Source: Copromyces sp. CBS 386.78 (lineage: Eukaryota; Ascomycota; Sordariomycetes; Sordariales; Sordariaceae). From it: 64,000 nucleotides of DNA. The notes beneath the pieces were generated by a model, which saw nothing but the letters and a program-made list of their open reading frames with translations, had not been told where the DNA came from and ran no database searches. The position numbers and the translations under genes were made by a program. Location of the stretch: assembly GCA_030685235.1 (NCBI GenBank), contig MU839257.1, positions 1 to 64,000 of the forward strand. Reading direction: 5' to 3'. Positions within the stretch are counted from its first letter, which is position 1. Each line of letters starts with the position of its first letter. Positions 1-63,651 of this stretch are shown piece after piece.

Positions 1-240
1 AATTCAACGGAGAAAACCGTTCGTTCATAGGATGGATGGTTGGCCCAGAAAGTCTATAAGAAGGGTGGTCCCCTTCGAGGAAAGAAAAGGTTTTCAATAG
101 CTCATCAGACACTTCTTGATATCTTTACCAATATAAAACCTATCTACCCATACCAAATATCGTTTTACTCGTTTTGAACAGTTCTACGTAACTGTATCAA
201 CCTTTTGAAGCTATTTACAACCCTCGTCGATCGATACCCT
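1..240. other. Non-mutated leading segment
   Basis: These first bases have balanced composition and ordinary CpA/TpG content, unlike the AT-rich DNA that follows. No convincing reading frame is seen. It could be unique host DNA or a less mutated element end such as an LTR. The window edge prevents a decision. Confidence 0.3.
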
Positions 241-339
241 CTAACAATTACCTAATTATTTCTCTTTATAATTATCGAATACCTCTCCTCCAACTTTATT
301 ATACTACTATTCCAATTTAGTAATTATATTAAATTATAA

Positions 340-10140: not shown

Positions 10141-10299
10141 AATAATAGATTTAGAACGAAGGCAAATATTTTTATTTAATAATAATAATATTTAATTATT
10201 TATTAATCCCTTTTATATTTAACGAATATAAGAAGGTATTTAATTTAACTAATTTAATATTATTATTATAATATTATAAAAAATTCTTTAATATATTAA

Positions 10300-15130: not shown

Positions 15131-15149
15131 GGACGATAATAAATAATAT

Positions 15150-15650
15150 TGAAATGGAGCAAAACCACACCAACAAAGGAACGGGGCCACACCACACAAA
15201 CTTGCATGGCGAGGAGCAGATCCAGAGCTGATGATCTTGTCCGTAGAACTGGATGGAGTTGTCAAATCACAGCCATAAAACCACCATAGGAAAGACAGAA
15301 GGTGAAGCAGAGCTTCACCTCTATACTTTTCTCAAGATAGTAAGGTGCGGATCTGAAGGTCGGTGTCAAAGAAGATAGAAGGTGATTCACGAATGCGATC
15401 AAAGATTTCAAAAAGGAGTATTGCAAAGATCTCAAGAATGTTGGTGCTCAATTTGTTGTTCTCTCTTGCTTGGTTGTCTACGGTTTGAAAGGGGATGCTA
15501 TCCTTCTTATGCTTTTCCATCTTCAACCCTATTCAGCCCTAGAGCAAATCCGCTCCTCAGTGTCCCAGCTCCACAAGTATCTCAACATCTATTCTGACAA
15601 AACGCCCCAACTCAATATTTATTATTTAAGGCGAAGAATTCCCTTCTTAT
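15150..15650. other. Non-RIPed island between mutated elements
   Basis: About 500 bp of ordinary composition between the LINE and the next AT-rich stretch. On the plus strand a frame across about 15,390-15,658 reads a Leu-rich peptide with GLKGDAILLMLFHLQP, which looks like a fragment of a host protein. No start or domain could be assigned. It escaped RIP probably because it was single-copy when the flanks were mutated. Confidence 0.45.
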
Positions 15651-15659
15651 TTAAGTAAG

Positions 15660-45666: not shown

Positions 45667-45816
45667 TCAGCTATTCCAGTGCCACGTCATTGCGCCCAGC
45701 GTGAGGACCCCAACGAGCATCAAGAGCGCCACGAGCATCGCGCCAGCCTTGTTCTCTGCCTTGACATCTTCGTCTTGGTCCGAGGGGATGAGTCGTGAGT
45801 AGCTGTCCAGATTCAT
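45667..45816 (-). CDS. Possible small single-pass membrane protein
   Basis: A 49-codon frame from an ATG at 45,816. It starts with about 25 polar, mostly acidic residues (SDQDEDVKAENKAG) followed by an uninterrupted hydrophobic helix of about 20 residues rich in Leu, Val, Met and Ala, ending shortly after in WHWNS. The order, cytosolic acidic head and tail-anchor-like helix, is plausible for a small membrane protein. The open frame extends further upstream, but that part looks non-coding. No family recognised. It could be chance. Confidence 0.35.
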   Translation of the reverse strand: MNLDSYSRLIPSDQDEDVKAENKAGAMLVALLMLVGVLTLGAMTWHWNS

Positions 45817-47112
45817 AGTTGATATATATGGTGGATCAGGCCAATAGTGCCACGTTATAAGATGAATTGTTAACGATGTGTATTCGACGTGCGATTCTAT
45901 GAGATGAAACCAACTGGTTAAAAGACTGAAGATTGCATGGCGAGTATTAAAAGTTGAAGAGCGTCTCACCAGACTTATAATTGTTCTCGGGTCCCTACCC
46001 GAGGAAGAATGCGCCGCTATTCGTTATTTCACCCCCATTCCACGACTTCCGGACTGAGTCAGCTGCTCTTTGTTTGCGCTGAACCAGGAAAGAGATCCTT
46101 GATGGTGGTCAGGCGGGGTTACCCAAGCGAGAGTCAACAAGGCGTAAGGCGTCAAATTGGCGTGGAAGGACTCCCGACAGCCTGGGAAATTCCATCCGTG
46201 GAACTGAGCTCCGGTCTACCGTTTTCGGTGTCGCCTACTCCGAGTATATGCCTTGTCAACTCAACCCGGAATGCGCTCGATTATATGTCGATGATTATCT
46301 TGGCATTTCACAAGCGAAGCCCACATACATACATCCCTCCATCACACGAGACACCCGCACGCCTCACTCCGTCAACCGAGTGGACCACGGAGTCCGGAGT
46401 TGGGTGTTTGTACCTCCCTGGCCGGCTGTTTGTGACGCGGCATTGACTCCAAACATCGACGATATCCGAGACCTGTGCCAATTACATTACCGGCCCTGCC
46501 AATGTTGCCCCCCTCCCGGCCGACTTCCCGTGCGCGGCTATACCCGAGAGTCATCACGTACATTACATACATAGGCTCGGATACAGGAGCCGGCAGACGA
46601 CGGTTGAAGTTCTTCCGTTTACGCTGAAAGTACTATCTCACCCCTTCGTACATCAAAAGCCCTGCCATTACGCGGCCGACAGATCAACGACTTATACCCA
46701 GGTCTGAACATGCCCTTTACACCGTTTGCCTACAAACAACGAAAGCGGCCATCTCTCCCTACGTTCTGCAGGCTTCTCAGGTTTCCGTTCATGATGTTAT
46801 CGATTTTGCTCACGGAAAGCAAGGGGGATCTTTGACGTTCTAGTAAACAATGTCGTCTTGTGAAGGCCATCAGTCGAATGCTTTACCAGAAAGGGATCTT
46901 GCTGAAAGCTTCTAGCTGCATCGTGCACCTGTACAGGAAGATACCTAGTGGTGTCACGAAAATTGGCTTTCTATAAATCCACGCAGGGCTTAAGTGTCCA
47001 GGCGTCAGGTCAAGACGAACACCAACACTCATCTCAAAGTCACGGGTTCATCCTGCATTTTTGAAGCACGAAGAGCTTACCACACTAAACACTGCACAAA
47101 ACTCTTTTCAAT
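45817..47112. other. Intergenic, no gene seen
   Basis: 1.3 kb before the paralogue cluster. Several frames of about 100-145 codons overlap each other without domains or good starts. Nothing resembling the cluster domain was found here. Confidence 0.45.
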
Positions 47113-47552
47113 ATGGTACACTGCGAAGACCTTCCCCCCCTTTCCTGCCTGTGCCAGAGCTGACCATGCCCTCAAGATTCCCTTGATTCCTGTCGTTGCG
47201 GGTCTAACTGCTGTCGTTGCACCCGCGATAGTTACCGCACCCATTCTTGCCGCACTGGGCTTTGGTGCCGCTGGTCCCGTTGCTGGTTAGTGCCACCTAC
47301 ACATGAAGTGCATTAATGCTGTTCTGATTGGAGATCAAGTGCTGATATAAACCAGGGACTGCCGCAGCCGTAGCTCAGGGCGTACTTGGCAATGTTGTCG
47401 CTGGCAGTCCGTTTGCGATCGCGCAGAGTGCTGCAATGGGCGGATATGGTGCCGCGATTATCAACGGAGTTGTCCAAGGAGCCGGATTGCTTGTTGCTGG
47501 GGCTTCCAGTGCCAAGTGCCTGATCTCGGGTTGCGGAGAAGACAAGAAGTGA
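47113..47552 (+). CDS. Ifi-6-16 (IFI6/ISG12-like) small membrane protein, copy 1
   Basis: The domain is clear; the start is not. Tentative exons 47113-47115, 47177-47285 and 47356-47552 give 102 residues. Under this model the first exon is only the ATG, followed by a 61-base intron with a weak donor (GTACAC) and an AAG acceptor. The next exon encodes a Val/Ala/Pro helix ending in LGFGAAGPVAG. After a phase-1 intron in the Gly codon comes GNVVAGSPFAIAQSAAMGGYG, then a second hydrophobic helix and a CLISGCGEDKK tail. This Gly-rich two-helix layout is that of vertebrate IFI6 and IFI27/ISG12. Probably an organelle-membrane protein; function inferred only. Confidence 0.62.
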
Positions 47553-48157
47553 GGAGGAGAAACACACCATCAGATGAGTGTTGAGCTGCTTAACATGCTG
47601 GCCCAGAAGTAATTCACATGCAATCATCGCTGTCCTTCTCTGTTACACCCCTTGTCCGCCTTTCCCCGTTACCAATTGTCTGATACGTATTTCTCGCGGG
47701 AAGTATGGTTCTGGAGCGGGTGTGGTGTTGAATACAGAAAGCATCCATGATTCCAATTTCATCATCTGCTTCGTCATCTTCATCAGCTACTTCCCGTAGA
47801 AATGCTTTTCTTTCATCCGGGGAGCTGCATCCGGTTCCGTACTGGATCATGACGTTTGGTCGTTGCATCGACGGCTTTCGTCGTTTGCGTAATACACCAT
47901 GATGACGAAATCAGGCCTACAGAAGCCTCTTGGTAATTATATCAGCTCAAGGTGATGGCGATTTCTCATTTCTCCATCAAATCTGCAACAATCTCTTCTC
48001 TCCACCTCCACCTCCAAAACATACTCCTCACTCAATTTTCTCACAGGTGACCAAAACCTCGAAGGTTCGTACGACTTGACATGAAGTTCAGATGACTGTG
48101 ACAGATCAAGGCCGATGCTGACATTTTCCGTTCAGCAATCCTCGAAGCCTCTCCAAG
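47553..48157. other. Intergenic leader region
   Basis: Includes a CT-rich stretch at 47,970-48,050 ending in TTCTCACAG, resembling a 5' leader or intron end upstream of copy 2. No additional frame could be joined confidently. Confidence 0.4.
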
Positions 48158-48413
48158 ATGATGAGCATTATTCTATCCATCCTCGGATGGGCTGCCGCTG
48201 GGGTCAGGGCCGGTGAGTGCTAGGACCCCTTCGTGAGGTCGTGAGAATCAAGTGTTTGCTGACGTTCTCACGCCGCTAACTACAGGATCTATCGCGGCCT
48301 TCCTTCACTCTTTGATCGGCAATGTTGTCTCTGGTAGCTGGTTTGCCATCCTTCAAAGTCTGGGAGCAACAGGTGCTGGGTTGCCCGCACTTTTGGCAAG
48401 GATGCTGGCATGA
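48158..48413 (+). CDS. Ifi-6-16-like short protein, copy 2 (truncated first helix)
   Basis: Exons 48158-48212 and 48286-48413, 60 residues, with a GT-AG intron in phase 1 at a Gly codon exactly as in its neighbours. Exon 1 encodes only a short hydrophobic start (MMSIILSILGWAAAGVRAG) in place of the usual full first helix. Exon 2 encodes SLIGNVVSGSWFAILQSLGATGAG and stops soon after, so the second helix is also short. The signature GNVxxGSWFA is kept. It may be a minimal functional member or a decaying one; a non-coding upstream exon is possible. The second ATG, three bases on, is an equal start. Confidence 0.6.
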
Positions 48414-48944
48414 GGATCTGACATGCTCATGGGGTTCGAATTATTTTCATCGCGGCTGAGACGCCAGAGGGGGGAACTTCAGGCCCAGAGAATACTGCGA
48501 CAGTCCCAGCCCTATTCTCATCTTTGTATCGGCTCATCACCAAATCTCGGACAAGGGTTTAACTTGCTATTCATGACTAGAGCCTTCCAACATTTGTCAC
48601 AGGGAAATCAAGGATCAGAAGAAATTTCAACCACTGACATTCTAAATTACGACTTATTAACGGAAATCGATACACTCTCAACAAGTTGCCGTTTATGTCT
48701 TGTTGCATCCGGTTCTGGATGGCTCGATTGCTGATTCGTCGATAAGTCCTGTAGGCCTCATGCAGCTCTACCCCTGGCACCCCCTCTCCACGGGCTGGAT
48801 CAAAACATAGAAATGCAAACGGAGAACACCAACCGCAAACTGTACTACTCCATCAATCGCCTCAGCCCAAGGTCACTCCCTTGGGAATATCCCGACCCGC
48901 AAAACACAGAATCTTTTCGCCATCAGCAGACAAACACCAGAGAG
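48414..48944. other. Intergenic, no gene seen
   Basis: The spacer between copies 2 and 3. Only short frames. Confidence 0.5.
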
Positions 48945-50221
48945 ATGGCGTTCTGGGGCCAAGTCGCAGAATGGGGCGCGAACACCGTTGCCCCGGCCGT
49001 TGTTGGTCTAGCGATGAACGCCAAAGACCTTGGTGAGCAGGTAAGGCTTATGACCCCAATTTTGGGCATGAAGGTGGAATGTTCATCAGTATCGCTAACT
49101 AAAACTGTCAGGTCGGAGGCCAGGCTGCTGAATGGGCAGCTAAGGAAGTTGCTCCACGTGCTGTCGGCCTTGCGATGGAGGCACAGAAACATGCTGAGCA
49201 GGTAAGTGGTAGATCGTTAGGCTTAAAGGCCTCACACATCTCTTTTTTACGGTTCCTGTCAAGTTTGCTGATATATTTCGAATATCTGATTAGGTGGCGG
49301 AATGGGGTGCCAAGGAGGTTGCTCCTCGTGCTGTCGGCCTTGCGATGGAGGCACAGAAGCATGCTGAGCATGTGGCCCCCGCTGTCGTCGCCGTTGCGAT
49401 GAACGCCAAGCAACATGCTGAAGAGGTACGGTATATGCTTTGCATTCTTGTGGTAAAGCTGACCGTGACTCAACAACTTAGATATCGGGTCATATTGCTG
49501 AATGGGGCGCTAAGGAGGTTGCTCCTCGTGCTGTCGGTCTTGCAATGGAGGCACAGAAGCATGTTGAGCAGGTGACTCCCGCTGTTGTTGGCCTTGCCAT
49601 GAACACCAAGGGACATGCCGAACAGGTGAGATTTCCTTTCTTTGCAAGGAACCAACATCGAGACACCATGTCTCGTCCTATTCAGCATCATTCACTGACA
49701 GCTCTCAGATCTCCGGACACGTCGCCCACTGGGGTGCTCACCACTTTGTTCCTGCTGCCGCCGGATTAGCTCACAACGCGGAGCGACACTATGAGCAGGT
49801 ATGAGTGATCCCCAACTTCTCGTCGATACTTCGTCCCCGACAGAGAGACTGACACTCTGTGGTTTAGGCATCACCAACCGAACGAAAGGTGATACGTGGG
49901 CTAGTGTCTGTCAGCTTGACTTTGCTGGCCGAAGGCTTTGGCATATCACTTCCCAAGTTGCTCATCGGTCCCGTCCTCGGTGTTGTTGGCGTTGGCACCG
50001 GGACAGCTGCGAATGGTCGGGGTGCAGAATCCGGCACTGCTCAGGCATCCCGGCTCCCGCAAAGTTCGAGATCGGGACGTGCAGCTGTGAATCCTATGGA
50101 ATCTGGCTCCAGGGCAACCAGGAAAGAAACAGGAAACGGCGCGGTCGGCGTTTTAACCACAGTTGCAACGAGTGCAGTTGTTATTGAGAGCATCGTTGTG
50201 TTGATATCGTGGCTGTTGTGA
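48945..50221 (+). CDS. Repeat-exon amphipathic protein with hydrophobic C-terminus, copy 3
   Basis: Six exons: 48945-49040, 49112-49201, 49294-49425, 49482-49625, 49709-49798 and 49868-50221; 301 residues. Every intron is in phase 0. Exons 1-5 encode near-identical amphipathic modules of the pattern AEWGAKEVAPRAVGLAMEAQ then KHAEQ; exons 3 and 4 hold a second partial unit (VAPAVVAVAMNAKQHAEE). Exon 6 has a hydrophobic stretch (LPKLLIGPVLGVVGVG) like the first Ifi-6-16 helix, a polar Ser/Arg/Gly linker, and a final hydrophobic helix (ATSAVVIESIVVLISWLL). The repeats resemble apolipoprotein/perilipin-type membrane-surface helices. I recognise no named family for the repeat. Its exon module recurs in copies 4, 5, 7 and 8. 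Confidence 0.75.
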
Positions 50222-50794
50222 GTACTGGAAGAGGAGCTGTGCGGAGGATGGCAGACACGATTGCCGTCTTGTTCCTGCCTAGAGGTATCTTGGGTAATCA
50301 CATCAAGACGGCAGGTATAGTTCCTTCCCTGGTAATTTCCACTTCTCTCCTCCTCGATTTTCCCTCCTTTTCCGTTTTGTCGTTCTTAGTTCCCAATCAG
50401 CCATACAATTTCTACTTTGTTCTCAAAACCCCGTCCGAAGGATTCTCGCCAATCCCTTGTTGGCCCAAAACGGCGGCCACCCCACGCCTCCAGAATCCAG
50501 GGCCTCTCGCGTAATTTATCTACACTGGTGATTCAGAGCTTCCTGCGTACGACACTGCAAGACAGCTGTCGTTGACGTACCCTGTAGGCGCCAGAAACGT
50601 CATTAGGCTACCGTCGTATTTCATGTCTGTCTGCCCAACCACGCTCCCTAACAACATCGAACGCAACACAAAAAGCTTCAACGTCTACCTAGTTCACTCG
50701 GTGAACCCGCGTTTTCTCCCAAAGTCTCAACAACGCACCCATAAAGGTGGAAAGATACTCGCTTGCACAAGAACCAACCCGATTGAGCAACAAC
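50222..50794. other. Intergenic, no gene seen
   Basis: The promoter and leader of copy 4. T/C-rich near 50,340-50,400. Confidence 0.5.
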
Positions 50795-51738
50795 ATGACA
50801 GTCACGGGGAAATGGAGATCTTGCACACTCCCTTTCTCTCCCGAAAGACTTTTGGGGATTATAGAAGAGGCCAAGAGGAAGGCAAGCAAGGTGCGTCGAA
50901 GCGATACAAATGCCCGGGTACTTGTTACACAAATAGACCTTGGCTTACTGACACGTCGTGACTCCAGGTCTCGTTCTCTTCAATCCTCAACGGTATGCCA
51001 AAGTCCTCGGACTACCAGTCAAGCGTGATTAAAGAAGGGCCAGACGGGAAGCCGGTACGGTAATCCAAACAAAACATACATGAATTTCATGCCACCACAG
51101 GAGTAGGTGTCACGGCTAATGACTTCCTCGAGCAGGCACCAATTACCCCCCAGGATTGGTCTACCCTGGTCCTTCCCGGGCTTGAATCCTTGGGAGTACT
51201 CACAGAGGACATCAAGAAGCAGTACGAGGAGGTATGTAGCACATCTTGTTCCATGAACAAAGTTTCGTTCGTGTGTTGCTAACGTATTATGTTCCCCCCA
51301 AAAAGGCTCGAGCATGGGCTGTCGAACACCCTCTTGCTGCTGCACTTGTCGTAGTTGTTGTAGCAGGTGTCTTGATTGTCCTATTCTTCTACCCTCATCT
51401 TTTATACAAGCCCGTTCTGAATGCTATAGGGTTCGCCTCTAAAGGTGTATCGCCAAGTAAGTCCACAACCGTCTACAAGAAGCTGTTGTCCGTGAGTGCT
51501 GACACAAGACACATCGCTGCCAGATTCGATTGCAAGCGCAGTGCAATCCTGGATCGGAAGTGTACAGGTTGGAAGTAGTTTTGCCTGCAGTCAGAGTGCA
51601 GCAATGGTTGGGTATGGTGCTTCCACTCTTGCTACTACTACTCGTACCGTGACCGGGACCATGATTGCCGGTGGTGTGGCTCTGCGTAGCAGGTGGCAGC
51701 GCCAAAGAGAGCGTCCTCGTTCACGTGCAAAACTGTGA
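50795..51738 (+). CDS. Ifi-6-16 domain protein with N-terminal modules, copy 4
   Basis: Five exons: 50795-50890, 50968-51054, 51136-51231, 51306-51444 and 51524-51738; 210 residues. Introns 1-3 are phase 0 and intron 4 is phase 1 in the conserved Gly/Asp codon. For exon 3 the acceptor CGAGCAG at 51,135 is chosen because copies 5 and 7 begin the same exon with [AI]PIT; earlier AGs meet a stop. Exons 2 and 3 are two polar modules. Exon 4 starts with the shared ARAWAVEHP motif and a strong Val-rich helix ending IGFASKG. Exon 5 has QSAAMVGYGAS and a second helix, then a basic tail (RWQRQRERPRSRAKL). The basic tail contrasts with the acidic tails of copies 9 and 11. Confidence 0.76.
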
Positions 51739-51985
51739 GGTAAACGGCTGGTACGAGGCTGAGCCCCGGCCTCCCACATAATTTACCTTGGCTTAAATTC
51801 TCTGTAGCTGGTGATCTATGTCTTATTTTCTTTATACCTTCACTACATCCCGCCACGGCCACATTCTTTTCTCAAGTTCTTCCCTCCGAGTGTCTCCCAA
51901 CCACTTCTTTTTTTATTGAGTAGTCACGATCCCATGCAGCTATAATAGGAACTACTCAAGCACGTGCCTTTTTCCAGAGAGTGAT
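51739..51985. other. Short spacer between copies 4 and 5
   Basis: T/C-rich. Nothing recognised. Confidence 0.4.
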
Positions 51986-53301
51986 ATGGAAAATTGGAGT
52001 CCTATGGGAGGCATCCCAACCGAACATGCTGGAATGGTGAGTTACTTACCTAGATATCTCTAGCGACATGCATTCGGCCTTCCTCAATGAATACCGGAGC
52101 CTCGCTGACCCTTGTGTTAGTGTCCAATCGGTGGCCAAAAATGGGCGGGACAGACTTGTCCTCGATGGGGTGCAGCAGTAGCCAAATTTCCGGACAATCC
52201 AGAGGAGAATGCCGAGGACGTCAGTTTAAACACTCACTGAGATCGAGACACTGAGCCTTCGAAATAGGGCCGTCGCTGACATCCGCAATGTCGTTTCTAA
52301 GGACGCGCTTTCGGTCCATGATGGAGGCTGGGTATCCCATACCCTACCAATGTCCCCCGAGACACTCTCAAGCCTTATTGCTAAAGCGCCGAAACGTACC
52401 AACAAGGTAAGCCAACTTGTTTTTTCGGCTTCAAGATTGGATGGGGAGATAACTGTTCACTAACCGAACCCGATGGCAGATCTCCTTTCCATTCGTCTTC
52501 AACAGTGTCCCAACCTTGCCGCAGGTCCCTCAGGCCGTGGGCAAAGAGGGTCCAGATGGCAAATTGGTATGCCCCAGAAAGCCTACATCCAAGTCTGGCT
52601 GCTCCTTGAAGAGAACTAACAAGTTAAACCTCTCTAGGCACCAATCACTTCACGGGACATGTTTACACTGGTTTTGCCCTGGCTGGTCGAGTCAGGACCA
52701 GAGCCCACAGAAAAGATCAAGCAACAGTTTGAACAGGTGCATAAGACGTTGTTACAATGACTGATATAGCCCTGTATATCCATAGCTAACATCCGATCTT
52801 GTTCACCAAACCTTCTAGGCTCGCAAGTGGGCATGCGAACACTCTGACAATTCGATCCTCCTAGTCCTTCTTATAGGAGGCATGTTGATCTTAGTAGTCG
52901 CAACCGCCTACATATACCCAAATCTTTTCTGGAAGCCATTAGTTGTTTTGTTGGATTTACAAGCGAAGGAGTAGCAAAAGGTACGTGGCCTACTTTCAAG
53001 TGGTGATGAATATCACAGACCTCATACTCCATCAGCGACCTCATACTCCATCAGCGAAGATCTAACTCAGGATCATGTATCATTAGGATCTTTCGCAAAC
53101 ATGATTCAATCTTGGCTTGGGAATGTTACAAAAGAGAGTATCTTTGCCTATCTCCAGAGCGCTGGGGCAGGTGGGTACGGTGCTTCCTTCCTCGACAGTA
53201 TCTTTCAATTCATTGCTGCAAGCTTGATGGGTTGGGGTGTAAAGGATCTGTTCGAAAGGCTCAGGAGGGATGAAGACCCTTGTGGTTTGATCACAACATA
53301 A
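51986..53301 (+). pseudogene. Ifi-6-16 paralogue with a frameshift, copy 5
   Basis: The exon series parallels copies 4 and 7: 51986-52036, 52121-52219, about 52268-52406, 52480-52566, 52638-52736, 52819-52980 and 53087-53301. Modules with PRWGAAVAKFPDN, GKEGPDGKL and APITSRDMF are readable, and exon 6 begins with ARKWACEHS and a normal helix. Near 52,945-52,955 the frame shifts by one base (a T-run TTGTTTTGTTGG). The expected VGFTSEGVAKG ending is present in another frame, while the original frame meets a stop. The exon 2/3 join is also off by one base with the only visible acceptor. The last exon (NVTKESIFAYLQSAGAGGYGAS and helix) is open. Either a recent pseudogene or sequence errors. Confidence 0.68.
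53018..53056 (+). repeat. Short tandem repeat inside the last intron of copy 5
   Basis: GACCTCATACTCCATCAGC occurs twice in a row. Likely a local slippage duplication within the intron. Confidence 0.75.
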
Positions 53302-53933
53302 GGTAGTCTGGTGTAATTGAAGGCCTCCAACTACTTGATGTAACTCAAGCGTCTAAGGAATCCACCCTGCCTTCCACGACAATCCAAGCTGCCTGTTTTA
53401 TATCATATGGTATCTGTGGATGGGTCGCTCACTTCGCCAAGCTTCTACAACGTGACTCGACAATAAACACATCAACGAACAACTGCTCCAATCCGCTCGA
53501 CCGGTCCCCGCCATATTCTCTAGCTCAGCCAGGTAAAGCGGCCCGTTTATTCGACCACAGCGTGGGAGAAAGAGGGGTGTTGGCCTCCTGCATAGGCCTA
53601 GTTGGACCTCAAGTCAACCCCTGTTTTACCAGCCATTTTCAAGACCAAAAACGACGATCATTGGCGTCGTTTCCATGACGAAAGGCGAGGCAGATTCCCA
53701 ACATCCGATGATCCGGCTCCCTCTTCCAGGTACTTAGTCCGTAGATACGGGCGTTTGTAAGTACATATAAGTCATTCAAGCTTTCATCTACGTCTTCCCA
53801 CGGTCATCGCCAATTGCCGACTTTGTGTTCACATTCAAGCTCAGCATCACTTCCAGTCTTCCACAACTTTATCTCATCCAAATTGCTTCAAGATCTCGCG
53901 CTGTCATCATTCTGTGTTAACTAGCAGCCCAAA
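53302..53933. other. Intergenic, no gene seen
   Basis: The 3' flank of copy 5 and promoter region of copy 6. Short frames only. Confidence 0.5.
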
Positions 53934-54471
53934 ATGGTATGTACCACTTGTGGTGTTGGTGTTGTCGAAACTTTCCTCTCGTTGCTAACGTATGGTGTCT
54001 TAACCAGCCAACTCTATCTCTACCGGACCTTTCAGGAGGTTATGGAACGGAAGGTATCGTCATGATACTCATCGGTATCCTGATTGCTACCGTTCCTGGA
54101 TTGGTGTTCGGTCCCATCTTCATCATACTTGGTTTTGGCAAACAAGGCATTGTTGCAGGCACGTTGCACTCACTCCCTTCCGGTTACGATAACAGCGCTA
54201 CATATGTTCCATGAGTTCCTCAACAGGACCATTACTGAGTCCAAACCGGCTGACAAACTACCTACCTGTTTATTGTGTATTAGGATCCGTGGCAGGGAAA
54301 ATCCAATCTATCATGCGGATTGTGGCTGCAACAAGCGTTTTCGCTATTTTCCAGAGTGCGGCAATGGGAGGATATGGAGTGGCTATTGTTGCCAGCGCAA
54401 TGCAGGCAGCTGGAGTGTTGACTGCGGTCCTTGGTACTGCTCTTGCAGCTTTGTCCGCGTGGAGGCCTTGA
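53934..54471 (+). CDS. Ifi-6-16 small membrane protein, copy 6
   Basis: Exons 53934-53936, 54008-54158 and 54284-54471, 113 residues. The first exon is only ATG, followed by a good donor (GTATGT) and acceptor (AACCAG); this gives MPTLSLPDLSGGYG as the start. Helix 1 (IVMILIGILIATVPGLVFGP) ends in LGFGKQGIVAG. The second intron keeps frame only if it begins GCACGT, a GC-AG intron; paralogues have GTACGT here. Exon 3 encodes SVFAIFQSAAMGGYGVAI and a second helix, ending SAWRP. This is the copy closest in size to human IFI27. No N-terminal modules. Likely an integral membrane protein of mitochondria or ER by analogy. Confidence 0.75.
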
Positions 54472-54962
54472 TCACCATGGGCTTCACCGGCTTCCTCATG
54501 TTTGGTCCTTATTGGATTATCACAACCAATTTTTTTTTTCAAATTGTCAGTGTGTTGGTGAACCATTTATATCGTGCTTGTAGGGCCATCATTGCGCTTC
54601 CTCACAGGTGTTCAGGTGTGGCTACGCATAATCTCGCCAACAGTAGAGGTAGTAGTAGTAAACAGAAAGTTCAAACCGAAGGCGTTGAAGGCGCTTAGAC
54701 GTCCAATGGTCGATGCCGTCAAACTGCGGACTGCTGCCACCTCATCCTTCCTAACCACCCCCACTCCCACCGGGTCGGGCCAGTCAACGGCCGCTCACAG
54801 GACCTTCAGTTGTACCAAGGACATGTGCTGGCGCGTATCGGACAGTTGCAACACCACTACAACAACATCCCGCAACCCTCCGAGACTTCATCTTCGTGTC
54901 AAAATTTACCAACAAAATCATACAGAATTTCGGGAGTCGCGCAGACAAGACAAGACAGCGAG
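54472..54962. other. Intergenic, no gene seen
   Basis: Spacer with a T-run near 54,530. Frames continuing past the copy 6 stop do not look coding. Confidence 0.45.
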
Positions 54963-56234
54963 ATGGCGCCCTGGGATATTCTAGGAGGTATACTCGCTCA
55001 AAGCGCAGAAAAGGCAGGCAACATCCACTGCACTTATCCCACTACGCAACAACTTTTGACTGATGATTGATTGCTGTTCATAGATTTCGACCGATGCATC
55101 GCAGTGGGCAAATGATTTCCTTCCGCAGGCCGGAGCGGTCTTGAGCAACATAGCAGCAGATTCGAGAAAACACGCGGAACAGGTAGGGCCAGCGGTCTCA
55201 AAATCGAACATATCTTGATTACTGCAGTGTCCCCAGCTAACTTGAGCTTACTTTTGCCAGTTCTCGGAGAGTGCTGGAGATTGGGTTAACCAGAATCTTC
55301 CTATCGCTACTGAAACGCTAGCAGATATTCTCGACAACGCAAAGAAGCATGCTGAGCATGTAAGAGATGGCCACTAATCAGTTGACCAAGCTTTCCAACC
55401 GTTTGCTGACGCATTCCATGGTTTAGGTCTCGATTCAGTTGACCTCGAACGTCGTCCACAAGAAGTCCCAGGTCGTTTTGGGCCAAGATGGCGAAACTGT
55501 TGAAGTGGTAGGGCTACCCAAGTTTACATCCTGAATCAACGCCTTCACGAATTGGATTTTCTTGTCTGACAAATAGCTTGCATCGTCTAGATCCCGATTA
55601 CCGTCTTCGACTGGGCAACGAATATCCTCCCCTTGCTTGTCAAGACAGGCAAAGACCTTGCCGAGGGCGCTAGGGTCGAGTTTGAGAAGGTAAGAGACCA
55701 AGCCCCTGAACTATGGGCTTCTTCTTATTGGGTTTTAAGCTGATAATTCTATCTTTGCAAACTGTAGGCTCAGAAGTGGGCGTCGGAACACCCTACCGCC
55801 ACAGTCTTCATCATTCTTGGAGTCGCAGGCCTTATCATCTTGGTTGCACATCCGGGATTGATCTACGCACCCTTGTTGGATGCTTTGGGATTCAGTTCTG
55901 AAGGAGTTGTTGGAGGTAAGTTCCCTTGGGTTCGAAATTGGCTCCTTGTTCCGCCCCAAAACAGTTCACAACAGACGCTGACACTCTTATCCCCGTGTTA
56001 TTAGACTCGATTGCAGCAGCAATGCATTCTACCATCGGCAACGTCAGTCCAGGAAGCGTCTTTGCATTTCTTCAAAGTGCTGGTGCGGAAGGCTATGGAG
56101 CCGTTGCTCTCGATGCTGCCCTACGGGCGGCTGGAGCTACTATCATGGCTGCCGGCACTGTAGATCTCTTACGTCAGTGGATGGATCAGAAGTTCAACGG
56201 CGATGTACGTGTGGTCGAGATAGGAGGACTGTGA
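54963..56234 (+). CDS. Ifi-6-16 domain protein with four N-terminal modules, copy 7
   Basis: Seven exons: 54963-55013, 55084-55182, 55261-55359, 55427-55507, 55591-55689, 55768-55915 and 56005-56234; 268 residues. Exons 2, 3 and 5 are each exactly 99 bases and phase 0, with a Trp-x-x-(Asn/Ile)-x-Leu-Pro core and HAEQ/HAEH or FEK ends. Exon 4 matches the GxDGxx module of copies 4 and 5. Exon 6 starts AQKWASEHP and encodes a helix ending LGFSSEGVVG. The phase-1 intron then joins to DSIAAAMHS and GNVSPGSVFAFLQSAGAEGYGA. Intron 1 must start GCAGGC to keep frame, a second GC-AG intron in the cluster. Intact gene. Confidence 0.77.
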
Positions 56235-56248
56235 GATATGTACCTATG

Positions 56249-56365
56249 TAAGCTTCGAGCAGTCACGATCGGTCACAAGGAGGGGCATAGCTTCCTGATG
56301 AGCTTTGAGTTCCGTCTCGTTCGGCTCTGCCAAAGACGGCATCTTGCCATCAGTCATGGCGTTAG
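56249..56365 (+). repeat. Diverged direct repeat, left copy
   Basis: The sequence from TAAGCTTCGAGCAGTCAC to GCGTTAG just after copy 7 recurs, with about 10 bases deleted and scattered changes, at 58,077-58,165. The two copies flank the minus-strand gene at 56,470-58,015. Confidence 0.7.
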
Positions 56366-56469
56366 CAGAAAGCAGGTGCGGTTAACAACATCTGGCGACA
56401 CGACAACAGATAGGTACTAACATCAAAACAATTGCAGCAGCGTGAATATTTCGCGAAACGTTACATCCA

Positions 56470-58015
56470 TCACCACTCTGCTCCATCATCCAAATGGGCC
56501 TCCCCTTCACTGTTTTCCTGGTTTTCATCATCATCATAATCGTCGGCGGCGCCGTCGTCTTTATCGTCATCTTCCTCACCCTCACCCAGCCGCCCAACCG
56601 GTTGCCCCTGAGTAATCTTGGATTTGGTACTATCGCCTCGGTTGTACGAGAATGAGAACTGCGGCTGAAACTTCCCCTGGGCTTGGAGCTGCACATTCGG
56701 CGCCAATTGGTATCGTTCTGCCTGCGTATAGACAGCTTGAAGGTTTGTTTTAGGAGCGAGACTGGCTGACGCTGTGAGTTTGGTGTTGACTGATTTGTTT
56801 GGTTGGACGGCCTTGTCTTCTGGAATGGCAGGAGAAGGCGATGCTGCTGGTCTTGGCTCTTTGGGCTTGCCTTTGAGCTTACTGGTTTTGGTTTTGGCTT
56901 TGGCTTTAGTTTGGGTTTTGGTTTATCCTCGCTGTTGGTCGTCGGTTTGAATGGATTCGGTCCTGGGTGTAGACTACCTTTAACCTATGTCTGCTTGCCT
57001 CTCACTGAAGTGGAAGGTGTTGGACCCAGATGCGCTTGTGTTCTGGCAGGTCCGGGATTTTGCTTTGGGCCACAAGAAGGACGTTGCGTCTGGTTTGACC
57101 GCATGGGTGAACATGACCTCCCAAACTGGAACCGCATTGGACGCGGTTTCTCCCACCGCCCGGTCGTAAAGACGACGGGTGTCCTTCTGAGGTGGGAGTG
57201 GGTTCTGGGTGATGTACGAGAAGTGAGCCCTCCTGGTTTCCGATCGTCGGTGAGAGGTTGTTGTTCTTCAATAATCGACAGAAAGGACTAGATAAGCTCT
57301 TTTCCGGCTTTGGATTAATGTCCGGAGAAGCCTTACTGATTTGCTTTTGCAGGAAATTCCGGGTTGCGGGCGCCTGGGGTGCATATGCCGTGAAGGAGGG
57401 AGGTTGTATTGCAACAATGGCAGATACGCTTGGGATTGAGGCAGAGCTTGCGATTGAGCGATTCACGTTGGTTGATTCGAGCATCGGGTTGTTGGGGAGA
57501 GACGGCAACTGCGATGGCGTGTTGCCCTCTTGGTGGCTGGCGGGAACTGGTTTTCTGAGCGTAGAGGTGTTTATGGCTGGTGAGAGGAGATTGATTTTGC
57601 TTGCACTGCTTCCTTGGACCGTCATCGATGGCATGGGCGAGACTTTCTTTCCACATGCTGGACTTTGTACCATTTCTCCCTGCTTTGCTGACGCCGAGGT
57701 CGGCGCAGCGTCATCTTTCCCAAGATGCATCTGCGGCTGCTGTTTACCGCTAGGCTTGACAGAACGCAAATCCGCATCATAAAGTGCGCTCAGAGTATCT
57801 GGTTGGCGACTACCCAGCAGGGAGTTGATGGCCGAAGATGCTGCGGATGATAGCTTCTTCTCATTGTTTGATGGTGCTGGTACGCGCTGAGGCTGACTCT
57901 GACCGGTCGGAACAATGCTCCAGGTCCAGTTCTTTCTGGATTTGCGTTTCTGGTTGCTTTCTTTACTGCGATGATGGGTGTGTGGTTTGTCAGGAGGTCG
58001 CCGATGGCCGTTCAT
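56470..58015 (-). CDS. Disordered low-complexity protein, exon structure unresolved
   Basis: The only gene-like feature opposite to the cluster. It starts at an ATG at 58,015 and stays open for 337 codons to 57,002. It is rich in Ser, Pro, Gln, Asn and Lys, with no hydrophobic segment. Further 3' on the minus strand two other frames look coding: one near 57,000-57,180 (VWEVMFTHAVKPDATSFLW), and one ending at 56,470 with GQPVGRLGEGEEDDDKDDGA and an acidic Asp/Glu tail. The real product probably joins these by introns that I could not fix. The family is unknown. It may be a nuclear or DNA/RNA-binding disordered protein, or a decaying insertion. Confidence 0.45.
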
Positions 58016-58076
58016 ATTGCTAAGTTCCTTTCTGTCATGGACAATAACGAAGTGTCCACTGGGTTGTAAGCTTCAA

Positions 58077-58165
58077 GCAGTCACAAGGAGGGGCCTAGCT
58101 TCCTGGCGGACTTTAAATTCCGTCTTACTTGCCAGCCAAAGACGACCTGCAATCTATGACGTTAG
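58077..58165 (+). repeat. Diverged direct repeat, right copy
   Basis: Matches 56,249-56,365 (AAGCTTC-AGCAGTCAC, ACAAGGAGGGGC-TAGCTTCCTG, TTCCGTCT, ACGTTAG). See the left copy. Confidence 0.7.
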
Positions 58166-58450
58166 TAGTAAGTGTAGTGCACAAATCCTTTCAGATGTTT
58201 TCGCTTGACACAACACGGTTCCGCTCGCTCTCTGCCAGAGGCCCGAGTTTCTGCACCGAGGCCTACTACGCCTTGTCCACTTCGAGCATGGAACTGAGTG
58301 ATGCTTATTTGTCCAGCTGTCTAGGTATGACGCAACCATCCGATCATCTATGAGGTTCCATTTAAGTATTTTTCCCAGTGCGACCTTCAATCTTTGTGAT
58401 CCGGAAACCTTTAACCTCGAACTTCAACATCCCCCGTTGACTGGGAGAAG
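58166..58450. other. Spacer and leader of copy 8
   Basis: No gene seen. Confidence 0.45.
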
Positions 58451-59523
58451 ATGGATTCCGGCAAGATGATGGACGACGCCGGCAAAGGTTTTGATGAGTT
58501 TGCCAAGAACGCAGGGAAGAGCTTCGAAGAAGCTGGCAAGGGAATGAACGACTTCGGAGAGAATATGAAGGCAAAGGGGAAAGAAGCTGGCAAAGGATTG
58601 GACGAGTTCGGAGAGAATGCAAAGAAGCAAGCGGAAGAAGTCGGCAAAGGGGCCGACGAGTTCGGGAAGAATATGTCTCAAACGTTCTCTGAACTTGTCG
58701 GAAAAGCTTTGAAGCAGGCCGAACAGGTAAACACAAGCTTATCGGTGCTCCGTTTGGCTCGCCTGAAGGCTGACTTACTTTTTGTTCACAGCGCATTGTC
58801 AACGTGGCCAAGGAGGTCTCGGAAGATGTGAAAGAGGCTCTTGGCCTGACACAGGATGCCAAGCATGAGCTTCCGGTTGTATGTCGTCTTCCTTCCCTTC
58901 TCTTTTTCACTATACGAGAACCGCCTGCTGACAAGTAGCCGCTCAGGTGGCCATGAAAGTGTCAGACTGGGCATCCAACATCCTGCCCAAACTGGTTGAG
59001 ACAGCCGGAGATCTTGGTGAGAGCATCAAAGAGCAGGTCAAAAAGGTCATCTCTCCGTCCCATTTCTGACCAAGTGCGTAACTGACCTTGTCACCTCAAT
59101 GATAGGCTCAAGACTGGGCTGCAGAAAACCCAGATGCTGTGATGTACATCTGGGTCGGCGTGGCAGGCGTCATCATTCTTGCGACATCCGGCTTGCTCAT
59201 GACACATATTTTGGGTGCCATTGGTTTCGGTGCTTCAGGTATCGCAGCAGGTAAGAGGTCCTCGAGAAAAAACACCGATGCCTTTCTCCCGAAGAGGTAC
59301 GTACTGACACTCGCCATCTGCTTGCTCAGGATCTGTGGCAGCAGCAATCCAATCCGGCATCGGAAATGTCGCGGCCGGAAGTGTCTTTGCTGGCCTCACG
59401 AGCGCAGCCATGGGTGGTGGTCTTGCGGGTACGGCCATTGCGGGTGTTGGTCAGGCTATAGGAGCCGCTATGGTGGCGGGTGGTGCTGCCGGTGCTGCTT
59501 CGAAGTTGATGAACAATGCCTAG
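58451..59523 (+). CDS. Ifi-6-16 domain protein with long amphipathic repeat head, copy 8
   Basis: Five exons: 58451-58726, 58792-58878, 58947-59036, 59106-59250 and 59330-59523; 263 residues. A donor nine bases later in exon 3 is equally possible. Exon 1 (92 codons) is an alanine/lysine/glutamate-rich array of imperfect units such as AGKGLDEFGENAKK, recalling LEA or apolipoprotein 11-mer helices. Exon 3 is the shared module (SDWASNILPKLVE). Exon 4 starts AQDWAAENP and encodes a helix ending IGFGASGIAAG. The phase-1 intron joins to SVAAAIQSGIGNVAAGSVFAG and an Ala/Gly-rich second helix. It is probably a membrane protein with a surface-active head. Function unknown. Confidence 0.77.
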
Positions 59524-60143
59524 AGTTTTAGAAGCTTGTCGACGTATGACAACATTTGTTTTTCGAGGGTCCAGAAAACGGAAATGGATTTAGGTGGATA
59601 GGTGATATCTGACAATCTATCAGATGCCCAAGAGTTGGCAGGGATGCTGATGACCGAGAGATGTTGTACTTGGAAGTAGGAGGGAAGATGTATCGTAGAT
59701 GACAAACGCCTAACGTAGGTAGCTGTGGTGCCATTCGATTCCGTGGGTTATTCAAGCCAAACGGGAAAGTTTCAGTTCCTTTAAATTGAATTGAACGGTG
59801 TTGGGAGAGACGTGGAGAAAGAAAAACACGCTTTACTGTGTTGAGTATCATGGATGTTCTGCACATGCCAGTTGGACACCGAAATCGCCACCGGCAGTCA
59901 CTCCTTATGAGCTGCACAGAGGCCTACCGCGGCAGCGTCGTCACGCACACCTCATGCGACAATGGGACGAATGCCACTGCAAGATCAGTGCGCATAACCG
60001 ACATTGAAAGATTTGTTCCTTCCCTCCTTCTCAACCCCACAACTTCATCCTGTCAATGTTCAACTCGGGACCACAGCACTCACCATTCACTTCCAATCAC
60101 ACCATCATTACACCCCGACTGCATTACACTGTATAATACCAAA
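59524..60143. other. Intergenic, no gene seen
   Basis: The 3' flank of copy 8 and promoter of copy 9, with a CA/TC-rich leader at 60,040-60,140. Confidence 0.5.
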
Positions 60144-60912
60144 ATGCCAGCATTTCCCTGGGATGAAGAAGGATGGGACGATCTTTCCCCAGAGGAGAAG
60201 CGTGAGAAAGTCAGTTGCCCATTCATTTCCAGAGCGGAAGATGCTGACTGAAATCGTGGCACTCCAGATCAAAGAATGGATTAAAAGAAACCGCGCCACA
60301 GCTGCAAGCATCGGGCTCGGTCTCGCGGGAGCGTCGATAGTCGTTGTCCCTGCGCTGGTCACGGCACCTGTTGTGGGTATTTTGGGTTTGTTTGGGTTTG
60401 GTTCTGGTGGCATTGTGGGAGGTAGGTCAAGAGTGTTCACCTCTCAGCTCATCTAGGTACTGACTAACAACCGTACAGGTTCTGTGGCAGCAGGATTGCA
60501 AGCAATGATTGGGAACGTTGCTGCTGGCAGCTGGTTCGCCACTCTCACGAGCACTGCAATGGGCGGATACGGACTAGCTGGTCTCACAACCGCCGTTCAG
60601 TCGGTCGGGGCGTACGCAACGGTGACTAGGCTTGCTAATGGCCTATGGAGCAGGAATGAAGGTAAAGAGGACGACGGAGAAGATAGTGCGGATACAGCTG
60701 GAGCCGGGCCCCCAAGCCCAAAAGCGCCCGAGGATGACGGAGATGGATCGGGTGCGGAAAAGACTCCTCGTGCGAGCCAGGAAAAACCGCGAGATAAGGA
60801 CTTTGACGAAGAGACAACATTGTCCGATGGCTCCGGGACCTCTGGTGAAGAGTCCTTCATACAAGTCCCGGATCCCTCTCCAGTCGGTCGGCGGATTATC
60901 ATCGATCTTTGA
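60144..60912 (+). CDS. Ifi-6-16 domain protein with acidic tail, copy 9
   Basis: Three exons: 60144-60209, 60268-60421 and 60479-60912; 217 residues. The start lies in AAAATGCC context. Exon 1 is an acidic head (WDEEGWDDLSPEEKREK). Exon 2 opens with IKEWIKRN, the shared juxtamembrane Trp motif, then a helix with VVVPALVTAPVVGILGLFGFG. The conserved phase-1 intron leads to SVAAGLQAMIGNVAAGSWFA and TAMGGYG, the clearest Ifi-6-16 signature in the window. After the second helix comes an acidic disordered tail of about 100 residues containing DKDFDEETTLSDGSG, a motif shared with copy 11. Intact; probably organelle membrane with a soluble acidic tail. Confidence 0.85.
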
Positions 60913-61317
60913 GAAACTTTGCAACTTGGTTCCTAGGGGTACCGAAAGCCCCACAAAAGCATATTGTCCATTTAGAAGTATGTTGGCCATTGCATCTGCG
61001 AAGGTACTTGGATACAGGCGATCCAAAAGCGATTGCGAATGGAAGAGAACGGCAACTGTCCTGCAAGGAGCCGTTACCAAACGCGATGCTCCAACGGAAG
61101 CAGTAAACGCACCTTTAGATATTTCGGTTATAAGAGTCGCTTCTCCCATGTCCAATGTCGAAGTCGTGTGCTCTCCATAAAGCAGTGTCTCGTCCTCTTC
61201 CGGGTTTCATCCCAGTGCTTGCAATCCTACGTTCCTCCCCTTTCTTCCGTCTCTGGGTTAACTGGTGCTGTTCAAGATTTTTGTTTCCACTTCATCCTTG
61301 TTGCCTGGGTCGCCAAG
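60913..61317. other. Intergenic, no gene seen
   Basis: The spacer between copies 9 and 10. The open frame of copy 10 extends back here but lacks a supported start. Confidence 0.4.
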
Positions 61318-62114
61318 ATGACTCAAAGACAATACTATACCCGCTGTTTGTGCCTGGCAGGAAAGCTTTCAACACCTGGGGGGGCAGAATTTCTCGTGGC
61401 TCACATACATTTACCACCTCGGGACCAGGCCAACGACTTCCCACCTCCTCCTCATGCTGATATGACGCGACAGGATCCCGGTGTTCCGTGTCAATGCTTG
61501 AGCGAACGCACTCGTCTCCCTGGAAGGTCCGATATAATCGGTGTCCATTTCCATCGCGAAGGGGATGATATATGGTGGGCTGGAGAGAGGACGCCCGATT
61601 CGCAAGTCAGTTTCGTATCTCTTTTTCTGTCTAGGTGATGCTTAGCTCAAGGATAAGCCCAGCCATCAAGCTCCAACGGCCTTCTGATTTCCGCTAAAAA
61701 AAGGTCTCTTCTCTTCTAGGGTTCGAGCATTAATAAAGGGGTCCTAGCCGGTTTGGCCGTGACTGCTATCCTTGTCGGTGTCGGAGCTGGGGTATTTTTT
61801 TTCACCCCCATTGCAGCACTTCCTGCAAGTGCATGGGCCCCTGCCCCTGGTGCCGTAGCCGCAAGCTTGCAGGCGGTAAAAGCCTTGTTTGGAGGTAATG
61901 GCGTCAAGGTACACTTCTATCTTCTAATTGAAAAATCGTCAATGATAGGGCTAACGATCGTTATTAGGCTCTGCAATCCTTGTACCACTTGCTCTTGCTG
62001 GATAGGCTGGACTCGGAGCCATATAGCATGGCCACCGAAAAAACGGTAGACGGAAAGTTCATCAAGAAGAAAGAGTCAACAATCGAGAACCATCTTCCTG
62101 TTTACCTCCACTAG
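61318..62114 (+). CDS. Divergent short cluster member, copy 10
   Basis: Exons 61318-61605, 61720-61908 and 61968-62114 give 207 residues; a start at 61,462 (159 residues) is equally good. All joins are phase 0. Exon 2 has one hydrophobic helix (GVLAGLAVTAILVGVGAGVF) followed by a Pro/Ala stretch and AVAASLQAVKALFGG, which resembles the join between the two halves of the Ifi-6-16 domain. The GNVxxGSWFA signature and second helix are missing and the Trp juxtamembrane motif is absent. The tail is Lys-rich and ends HLPVYLH. It looks like a decayed or specialised relative; assignment to the family rests partly on position. Confidence 0.5.
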
Positions 62115-62714
62115 AGGAGTACTTTGAGCGATTCGGGTCTCGAAACAAACGGTATATCCAGAAGGGTTGGGCAAGGTGACGAAGCTATCTAGTTGCTGTA
62201 GGTATCAAACAGATCTTATTCGTTCCCAGCTGCATGTAGGCGCTTGCTGCAGGCCGCCTTGCACATGCCAACTCATAGGTACAAGCTCATGTACATCCGG
62301 GCGGGCATCGCTGCGGGGTACACGGTAGCTGTGATATCTCGGACAGGCATCACTTTTCCATCTTCCACTTCTTCCTCTTGGTGAAATGTTCTCGGCCATA
62401 ATATCATTTGTTCCGCGCGGGTCCCACAACCATCCATTTCGCTGTTCTGGAGAACAATAACATCTCGAGGCCTGAAGACCTCCAGCATTCTTCTGTACCA
62501 CCCGACGCCACTGTCACACCTATCACCGCCGGGCCAATGTTTGAATGTGGCACGGAATCTTCATGACCACAAGAACAAAGGCATGTCCGCTTTCCAGTTC
62601 CTAGCCCCGCAGCAAAACTCTTTCCCACTTCCGACGTCCTGGTAACGATAAACCTAACCAATTCACATTGCGACATCATCAGTTGCAAGCCCTATCAGAC
62701 CAACGGAGATCAAA
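62115..62714. other. Intergenic, no gene seen
   Basis: The spacer between copies 10 and 11. Minus-strand frames here have no domain. Confidence 0.5.
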
Positions 62715-63651
62715 ATGACCGAACGCAAGACTCCACCAGGGGAACCCGATGATAAGGTCCCCCGGGAGCCATCCAAAAATGAGCCAGCGAAAGACTTAGA
62801 CACCTCATTCAAAGAAGACCCGGCAGAAACTAACACGCCATCAACCAACGATCCCCAAAACGGTCAACCCCAGCCGGACGATGACTTGCTCGAGAAGATA
62901 AGAAGGGTGAGTGTCCACTTCGCGTGTGGTTCCTCTTTCGGCTAGGCCCAAGTAAGACCAAGGACAGCTGATTGCGTTGCCCTACACAGGCAAAAGAATG
63001 GATCAAGCAAAACCCCAAAGCCGCAGCAGCTCTCGGTCTCACAGCCGGCGGACTAACAGTCGTCGCGGCCCCCGCGCTGTTGACCGGGCCAGTGTTGAGT
63101 ATGATGGGGTTTGGTTCCAGTGGAGTCGTAGGAGGTACGTGTATATCCCGTCTCTTGGCTGTGGATGCCATATCCTAACTCTCCCGCTCAGCGTTTGCGT
63201 CACTGCCCTATGCATTCCTGAAGATGAAGTTTGACCGTTTCGCTTTGTAGGGTCTGTCGCAGCCGGAATCCAAGGCATGATAGGTAACGTCGTGGCTGGT
63301 AGCTGGTTTGCTACAGCCACGAGTGCGGCGATGGGAGGGTATGGAGTCCCTGTTGTCGCGGCTGTTGGGCAAGGGGTCGGGGCGGCCGCGGCGTTTGTGG
63401 GTGGTGCGTATGCTGCTAAGGAGTTGAGGAACGAGAAAGAAGGTGAGGAGGCGGACGGGGGTAAGGTTGAAGGCGGCGAGGCTCCTCCAAATGACCCAAA
63501 GAACGAGGATCCTGACCATGATGACGGGGCAGGCACAGAGAAAGAGAAGGCCTCTCGTTGGAGGCAGAGTGGGCTGGGGCGCAGGGATTTCGACGACGAC
63601 GAGTCTACTTTGTTGGATGACTCTGACTCCGAGAACTCTGACGAGGACTAG
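62715..63651 (+). CDS. Ifi-6-16 domain protein with acidic tail, copy 11
   Basis: Three exons: 62715-62906, 62990-63134 and 63251-63651; 245 residues. Exon 1 is a polar Pro/Glu/Lys/Asp-rich head of 64 residues. Exon 2 opens AKEWIKQNP and encodes helix 1 with VVAAPALLTGPVLSMMGFG. The phase-1 intron in the Gly codon leads to SVAAGIQGMIGNVVAGSWFA and SAAMGGYGVPVV, then an Ala-rich helix 2. The tail of about 80 residues is strongly acidic and includes RRDFDDDESTLLDDSDS, clearly related to the copy 9 tail. Copies 9 and 11 share layout, so they are probably sister duplicates with copy 10 between them. Intact gene. Confidence 0.85.

Follow-up and report, generated by a model that had tools for sequence, protein, structure and literature searches.

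A window of 64,000 bases from Copromyces sp. CBS 386.78, a mould allied to Neurospora and Sordaria (contig MU839257.1, positions 1 to 64,000), carries on its plus strand, at 47113..63651, an array of same-strand spliced paralogues with the core of the Ifi-6-16 family (PF06140), to which human IFI6, IFI27, IFI27L1 and IFI27L2 belong. The census of the array, based on gene models built by hand and checked by script, gave eight intact Ifi-6-16 genes, one broken copy, one sister gene bearing helical modules and one gene that could not be related to the others. Judging from the comparisons described below, the cluster appears to be an old gene set and not a recent burst of copies. In our estimate there is about an even chance that this old, syntenic cluster of diverged Ifi-6-16 paralogues encodes organelle-membrane proteins through which the shape or integrity of membranes is adjusted when the cell is stressed. 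An earlier note on this DNA had described eleven Ifi-6-16 paralogues; the array is real and holds eight such genes and the remnant of copy 5, but copy 3 is without the core and copy 10 appears to be unrelated (copies are numbered as in Table 1).

Family membership, gene models and helical modules

The PF06140 profile search that the earlier note had called for gave matches in eight of the ten in-frame models (copies 1, 2, 4, 6, 7, 8, 9 and 11), with E-values of 3.4e-12 to 1.9e-6 and scores of 28.1-46.5 bits, and none in copies 3 and 10. When a profile was made from the eight domain copies, it found one solved structure, 2LOQ (IFI27L1), with an E-value of 9e-5, and a wider profile of 68 proteins, 64 of which themselves match PF06140, found 2LOQ with an E-value of 5e-5. 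These E-values and the 2LOQ match indicate that the family resemblance is not due to chance. The assignment to an IFI6/ISG12-like family therefore holds for the eight copies and, through its core exon, which matched the core of copy 7 (E 9.7e-9), for the remnant of copy 5.

In the Pfam scan of the ten models, copy 10 was without any Pfam match. No credible alignment between copy 10 and the family profile was obtained with hhalign (17 columns, probability 2%), and copy 10 was the best match of none of the 161 homologous proteins. A profile of the copy-3 counterparts had a weak piece of 26 columns in common with the transmembrane (TM) exon of the family (hhalign E 9e-4, probability 22%). These results suggest that copy 3 is a sister gene keeping the N-terminal modules without the core and that copy 10, having no detectable relationship, cannot be tied to the family.

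Spliced models rebuilt from the window ran in frame from start to stop in ten cases, copy 5 being the exception, just as had been claimed before. The TM-exon frame of copy 5 is closed by a stop ahead of the conserved donor; the exons upstream of it, as modelled, could not be joined in frame. The core motif GNVxxGSxFA / SAAMGGYG was likewise confirmed. In each intact gene, the domain is small and rich in Gly and Ala, and in most of them it consists of a hydrophobic helix with a GFGxxG turn followed by the GNVxxGSxFAxxQSAAMGGYG helices; Kyte-Doolittle hydrophobic stretches were present in all ten models. Each of the eight Ifi-6-16 copies has a phase-1 intron ahead of the core exon (after a short first exon in the case of copy 2), and the remaining introns of all models are in phase 0. 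These shared intron phases provide independent support for the gene models. Since a GC donor is used once each in copies 6 and 7 and two unusual GT donors occur in copy 8, the splice joints of these three copies are less sure. Copy 11 as modelled agreed at 245 of 245 residues with P0001, a public Copromyces sp. CBS 386.78 protein, and public counterparts of the same length exist for copy 6 (P0045, 113 aa) and copy 7 (P0027, 268 aa). The N-terminus of copy 1 is uncertain, as its Neurospora counterparts start differently. At 47113-47176, two of these counterparts open with MVHC or MVNC and read on into the modelled intron, which suggests that the annotation or a small indel differs.

The N-terminal modules claimed in the earlier note were found in copies 4, 7 and 8, where at least one exon-encoded helical module precedes the domain, and, without the core, in copy 3. 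The phase-0 module exons of copies 3, 4, 7 and 8 measure 90-144 bases, those of copies 7 and 8 being 99 bases long, and encode at least one helix; the module comprises ca. 33 residues, and we write its motif as xxxWAxxxLPxxxxxLxxxAxxHAEQ. Because these exons are phase-symmetrical, they could be duplicated without breaking the frame. Modules of different genes, copy 5 included, were compared in 36 pairs against 1000 shuffles each: 12 pairs were reached by at most 1 of the 1000 shuffles, and the remaining 24 were less clear. Among the clear pairs, copy 8 was joined to all three modules of copy 7; the other pairs linked copies 4, 5 and 8 with one another, exon 5 of copy 7 with copies 4 and 5, three modules of copy 3 with exon 2 of copy 7, and one module of copy 3 with copy 8 (exon 3). 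No clear link between the copy 3 modules and copies 4 or 5 was detected by the shuffle test. By a simple count, copy 3 has five such units in Copromyces and in two Neurospora species, against four in two further species. Copy-3-type proteins (copy 3, P0032 and P0041 among them) vary from species to species in how many helical modules they carry. In Neurospora tetraspora, a partial protein of this type occurs as a second one on a contig of the same listed size.

The hydrophobic moment was computed for N-terminal stretches of copies 3, 7 and 8, and its peaks lay at 97-103 degrees. Of 500 shuffles per stretch, 79 gave as high a peak in one stretch and none did so in the other four. Copies 3 and 7 had peaks at 97 and 98 degrees, and copy 8 had one at 100 degrees (0 of 500 shuffles). 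An AlphaFold model of P0027, the Pseudoneurospora counterpart of copy 7, had a mean predicted local distance difference test score (pLDDT) of 68.2; the blocks at 171-230 were helical with values of 81-93, and the part before residue 171 consisted of long helices of lower confidence. Since the predicted template modelling score was 0.38, the spatial arrangement in this model is untrustworthy. Two short strands were predicted with low confidence for the 27-aa exon of copy 7.

Orthology, age and distribution

Each of the 161 homologues compared matched some copy of the array, and 47 of them were clear counterparts, defined by bits at least 1.3-fold over those of the second-best copy. These fell to copy 11 (12), copy 1 (11), copy 3 (9), copy 7 (8), copy 6 (3) and copies 2 and 9 (2 each). 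Copies 4, 8 and 10 had no clear counterpart among the 161 homologues, an absence that is not established because ca. 8,000 candidates were scored per search, and their models accordingly rest on sequence signals. The identities of the counterparts varied from copy to copy. Those of copy 1 (P0044, P0046-P0048 and P0051) were 97, 87, 85, 75 and 61% in five species, the lowest value being that of N. tetraspora. The Sordaria counterpart of copy 2 (P0050) was 97% identical over 59 aa, and the counterparts of copy 3 (P0032, P0033 and P0035-P0037) were 58-80% identical. For copy 6, P0045 of Pseudoneurospora gave 89% and P0049 of N. hispaniola 54%. The counterparts of copy 7 (P0027-P0031) included those of Pseudoneurospora (96%), N. 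hispaniola (81%) and N. crassa (73%), and for copy 9, P0015 and P0018 gave 65% and 62%.

A tree was built from 41 chosen rows, namely the eight domain copies and, from the 161 proteins, 21 counterparts and 12 proteins of other fungi. Groups reaching across species were obtained for copy 1 (support 99/97), copy 2 (100/99), copy 6 (100/98), copy 7 (81/93), copy 9 (100/100) and copy 11 (99/93), and the eight changes of copy label on the tree are the minimum possible. Copies 4 and 8 were represented by one row each, so that the tree is uninformative on their grouping. That copies 1, 2, 6, 7, 9 and 11 group with counterparts from other species and not with each other suggests that the set is old, and in view of these six separate counterpart groups a recent expansion is not supported. 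The other fungi were placed among the array copies, mostly with weak support (five changes for that label), and a single array ancestor within Sordariaceae can therefore not be asserted.

Synteny was judged from locus tags and listed contig sizes. In Neurospora sp. IMI 360204, N0V85_004505, 004509 and 004512, on a contig of 28,443 bases, are counterparts of copies 1, 7 and 11; GE21DRAFT_6018 and 6015 of N. crassa correspond to copies 7 and 11; and the Pseudoneurospora counterparts of copies 1, 3, 6, 7 and 11 are all listed on a contig of 323,933 bases. Together with the grouping of counterparts by copy, the tag order and contigs suggest that at least part of the cluster predates the split of these genera.

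When copy 11 was compared with five relatives, the TM and core exons were 86-98% identical and thus better kept than the N-terminus (55-77%) and the tail (61-87%), with the exception of S. macrospora, in which the core (86%) was about equal to the tail (87%). Copy 7 showed little of this contrast or even its opposite: every part was 94-97% identical to Pseudoneurospora, and relative to N. crassa the TM exon was the less conserved part (see below). Single copies appear to diverge fast, and the divergence differs by copy. The rapid evolution claimed in the earlier note applies at most to some copies, namely copy 6 (54%), copy 9 (62-65%), copy 1 (61%) and copy 3 (58-80%), but not to the core of copy 11.

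The 49.8-Mb assembly was searched in six frames, exon by exon. The Pfam family as query gave 2 rows, the modules of copy 3 gave 5, and three pieces of the core gave 14, 8 and 7. All 36 match rows lay on this contig, at 47195-63429; the counts are lower bounds, and since the Pfam query caught only two array exons, distant copies could escape. A database search gave 399 proteins at E <= 0.01, and among the best 120 of these the named ones were mostly from Ascomycota, with some from Basidiomycota (e.g. Kwoniella and Desarmillaria). Several fungal proteins are already named Interferon-induced 6-16 or IFI6/IFI27 in NCBI or UniProt, and an Aspergillus match is labelled 'interferon alpha-inducible IFI6/IFI27 family protein'. 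Databases thus already record the domain in fungi, where it is widespread. In PMC10051545, a secretome protein of Thielaviopsis is tabulated with the term Ifi-6-16. No description of this clustered, modular fungal set was found in the open-licence literature searched; one may exist in print elsewhere.

Compared with the human proteins, the array resembles the family in its core, recognised by hidden Markov model in eight models, in the 2LOQ match, in the small size and hydrophobicity of the proteins and in the clustering of the genes. In humans, such a cluster lies at 14q32. The fungal set differs in that some copies add N-terminal helical exon modules and acidic tails. Other fungal Ifi-6-16 proteins, such as P0017 of Aspergillus saccharolyticus, P0059 of Pyricularia and P0072 of Kwoniella, have the same core. 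In contrast, the module-bearing query gave 17 matches in a search limited in candidates and length, of which the named ones were all from Sordariaceae and the others were unnamed entries.

Gene coordinates and surroundings

Table 1 Genes of the array and the open frame lying between copies 7 and 8. PF06140 E-values and scores are given for the models that matched (family cut-off, 29.1 bits).
Feature	Position	Strand	Length	Description	Exons	PF06140 E-value	Bits
Copy 1	47113..47552	+	102 aa	Minimal Ifi-6-16	47113-47115, 47177-47285, 47356-47552	1.3e-6	28.6
Copy 2	48158..48413	+	60 aa	Core with shortened N-terminus	48158-48212, 48286-48413	1.5e-11	44.4
Copy 3	48945..50221	+	301 aa	Repeated helical modules of 30-33 aa (phase-0 exons), then two hydrophobic stretches; without Ifi-6-16 core			
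Copy 4	50795..51738	+	214 aa	N-terminal exons and Ifi-6-16 domain	50795-50890, 50968-51054, 51136-51231, 51306-51456, 51524-51738	6.1e-9	36.1
Copy 5	51986..53301	+		Broken; recognisable core exon; start of the copy is a guess	53089-53301 (core)		
Copy 6	53934..54471	+	113 aa	Minimal Ifi-6-16; exon 1 is the start codon alone; GC donor in second intron		1.9e-6	28.1
Copy 7	54963..56234	+	268 aa	Three helical exon modules of 33 aa, a 27-aa exon, then Ifi-6-16 domain; GC donor in first intron		3.4e-12	46.5
Open frame	57005-58072	-	356 codons	Outside the family; no Pfam match			
Copy 8	58451..59523	+	265 aa	Amphipathic helical N-terminus of 92 aa, one 33-aa module, Ifi-6-16 domain		6.3e-7	29.7
Copy 9	60144..60912	+	217 aa	Ifi-6-16 domain between a short acidic N-terminus and an acidic tail		2.7e-7	30.9
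'Copy 10'	61462..62114	+	159 aa	Spliced frame with a hydrophobic stretch			
Copy 11	62715..63651	+	245 aa	Ifi-6-16 domain between a charged N-terminus and an acidic tail		1.2e-6	28.7

The genes lie on one strand, as the earlier note said, but its word 'consecutive' is doubtful, as copies 7 and 8 are separated by 2,216 bases that include the minus-strand open frame of Table 1. A further small open frame with a transmembrane-like stretch lies on the minus strand at 45667-46023. Compared by eye, a sequence nearly identical to it forms the C-terminus of P0030, the Sordaria brevicollis counterpart of copy 7, and the frame and that counterpart may be neighbours in S. brevicollis.

Ten long frames of the contig were scanned against Pfam. 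Seven had a match (phospholipase D, M28 peptidase, steroid-reductase-like protein, AFG1, fructose-1,6-bisphosphatase, ESF1 and Kre9/KNH protein) and three had none. No HET or similar domain was found in these ten frames, the intervening spliced genes not all being modelled; inside the AFG1 ATPase frame, an overlap with NPHP3_N scored 17.8 bits, below its threshold of 24.8.

AT-rich blocks at 1-17,500 and 40,001-45,000 had TA/AT values of 1.15-1.34 and (CA+TG)/(AC+GT) values of 0.20-0.56, which is the usual sign of repeat-induced point mutation (RIP). In the windows of 45,001-65,000, the values were 0.50-0.87 and 1.02-1.43; the customary limits are 0.89 for TA/AT and 1.03 for (CA+TG)/(AC+GT), and one window on the side of the array stood at 1.02. 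The array thus adjoins RIP-type AT-rich DNA and is itself not so biased, the block at 40001-45000 ending ca. 2 kb before it. RIP normally destroys close duplicates. With only 33-62% identity between their core proteins, the Copromyces paralogues have probably diverged too far for RIP to act on them. A diversified tandem family next to RIP-type DNA is unusual. The contig is also AT-rich at 72501-75425, with a RIP-type dinucleotide bias (TA/AT > 1.1).

Possible functions of the cluster

On the reading to which we give an even chance, the Ifi-6-16 core would be inserted in an internal membrane, either of the endoplasmic reticulum (ER) or of mitochondria, and the amphipathic modules would lie on the membrane surface. 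Copies differing in their N-termini would place one common core at separate sites, and under stress they would adjust the shape or integrity of membranes in the manner reported for human IFI6 at the ER. Membrane location, organelle, activity and trigger are here what we infer; the family membership, the gene structure, the orthology of six copies, the conservation of the copy 11 core and the amphipathicity of copies 3, 7 and 8 were observed as described above. According to a review (PMC8228428), IFI6 at the ER hinders viral replication organelles. The analogy concerns what the cluster may work like, and membership in PF06140 does not carry interferon biology over with it. To our knowledge, fungi have no interferon system.

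Several observations weigh against this reading. Only five of the eight matching models exceed the PF06140 cut-off, copies 1, 6 and 11 lying at 28.1-28.7 bits, at most 1 bit below it. In fold searches with whole models, long low-confidence helices dominated, and 2LOQ was absent among the matches listed. No shared promoter motif was found beyond chance. The TM exon of copy 7 was less conserved relative to N. crassa (65%) than the N-terminus (75%), and the counterparts of copies 1, 6 and 9 fall to 54-65%, so that strong constraint is not general. Copies 6, 7 and 9 are less constrained than copy 11, which has slightly lowered our confidence, to the even chance given above.

It is unlikely, in our view, that the cluster is a cell-death or defence system whose proteins would make membranes, mitochondrial or other, permeable when hyphae are infected or in conflict. 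PMC9144789 and PMC8228428 link animal relatives with apoptosis and the antiviral response, the former dealing with a virus-induced, antiviral shrimp relative; paralogues with one common core and varied N-termini resemble an effector set; and the counterparts of copies 1, 6 and 9 have diverged fast. However, allorecognition loci are typically highly polymorphic, unlike a cluster in which six copies are kept as separate lineages and the copy 11 core is 86-98% identical, and the ten contig frames are without a HET or similar domain, bar the sub-threshold NPHP3_N overlap. The role in allorecognition or defence suggested in the earlier note thus found no positive evidence here.

Somewhat less probable still is that these are lipid-surface proteins, coating lipid droplets or vesicles, in which apolipoprotein-like modules act and the Ifi-6-16 core only anchors. 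The modules do resemble those of apolipoprotein- or perilipin-like proteins in being repeated amphipathic helices of ca. 33 residues, with a periodicity in copies 3 and 7 near 11 residues per three turns, and counterparts of copy 3, which has modules and no core, exist in other species. However, such counterparts are also found for copies 1, 2 and 6, which are minimal and without modules, and the matches of copies 3 and 8 to the Pfam Apolipoprotein family (PF01442; 10 and 14.5 bits, respectively, against a cut-off of 90) are insignificant, so that no homology is shown. We also consider it improbable that the genes are tandem duplicates that evolve neutrally or decay and have no selected function. 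The broken frame of copy 5, the shortening of copy 2, the missing core of copy 3 and the TM exon of copy 7, which relative to N. crassa is no better kept than the N-terminus, would speak for this. Against it stand the separate cross-species counterpart groups of six copies, and copy 11, in which the TM and core exons are kept better than the N-terminus and, in all but one of the five comparisons, better than the tail.

A bolder form of the organelle-membrane reading, which we regard as a long shot, is that the diversified set acts as an organelle-membrane guard of Sordariaceae, in which exchangeable exon-encoded amphipathic helices direct a shared membrane core to different membranes, and that it blocks mycovirus replication sites or triggers organelle-based cell death. 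If this were true, the antiviral use of the Ifi-6-16 domain would be older than interferon.

In the literature searched, Ifi-6-16 proteins have been studied almost only as products of animal interferon-induced genes. In the Neurospora group, single genes or a whole cluster can be deleted. Since the cluster is common to this group, a direct test of what the domain does where there is no interferon may be possible.

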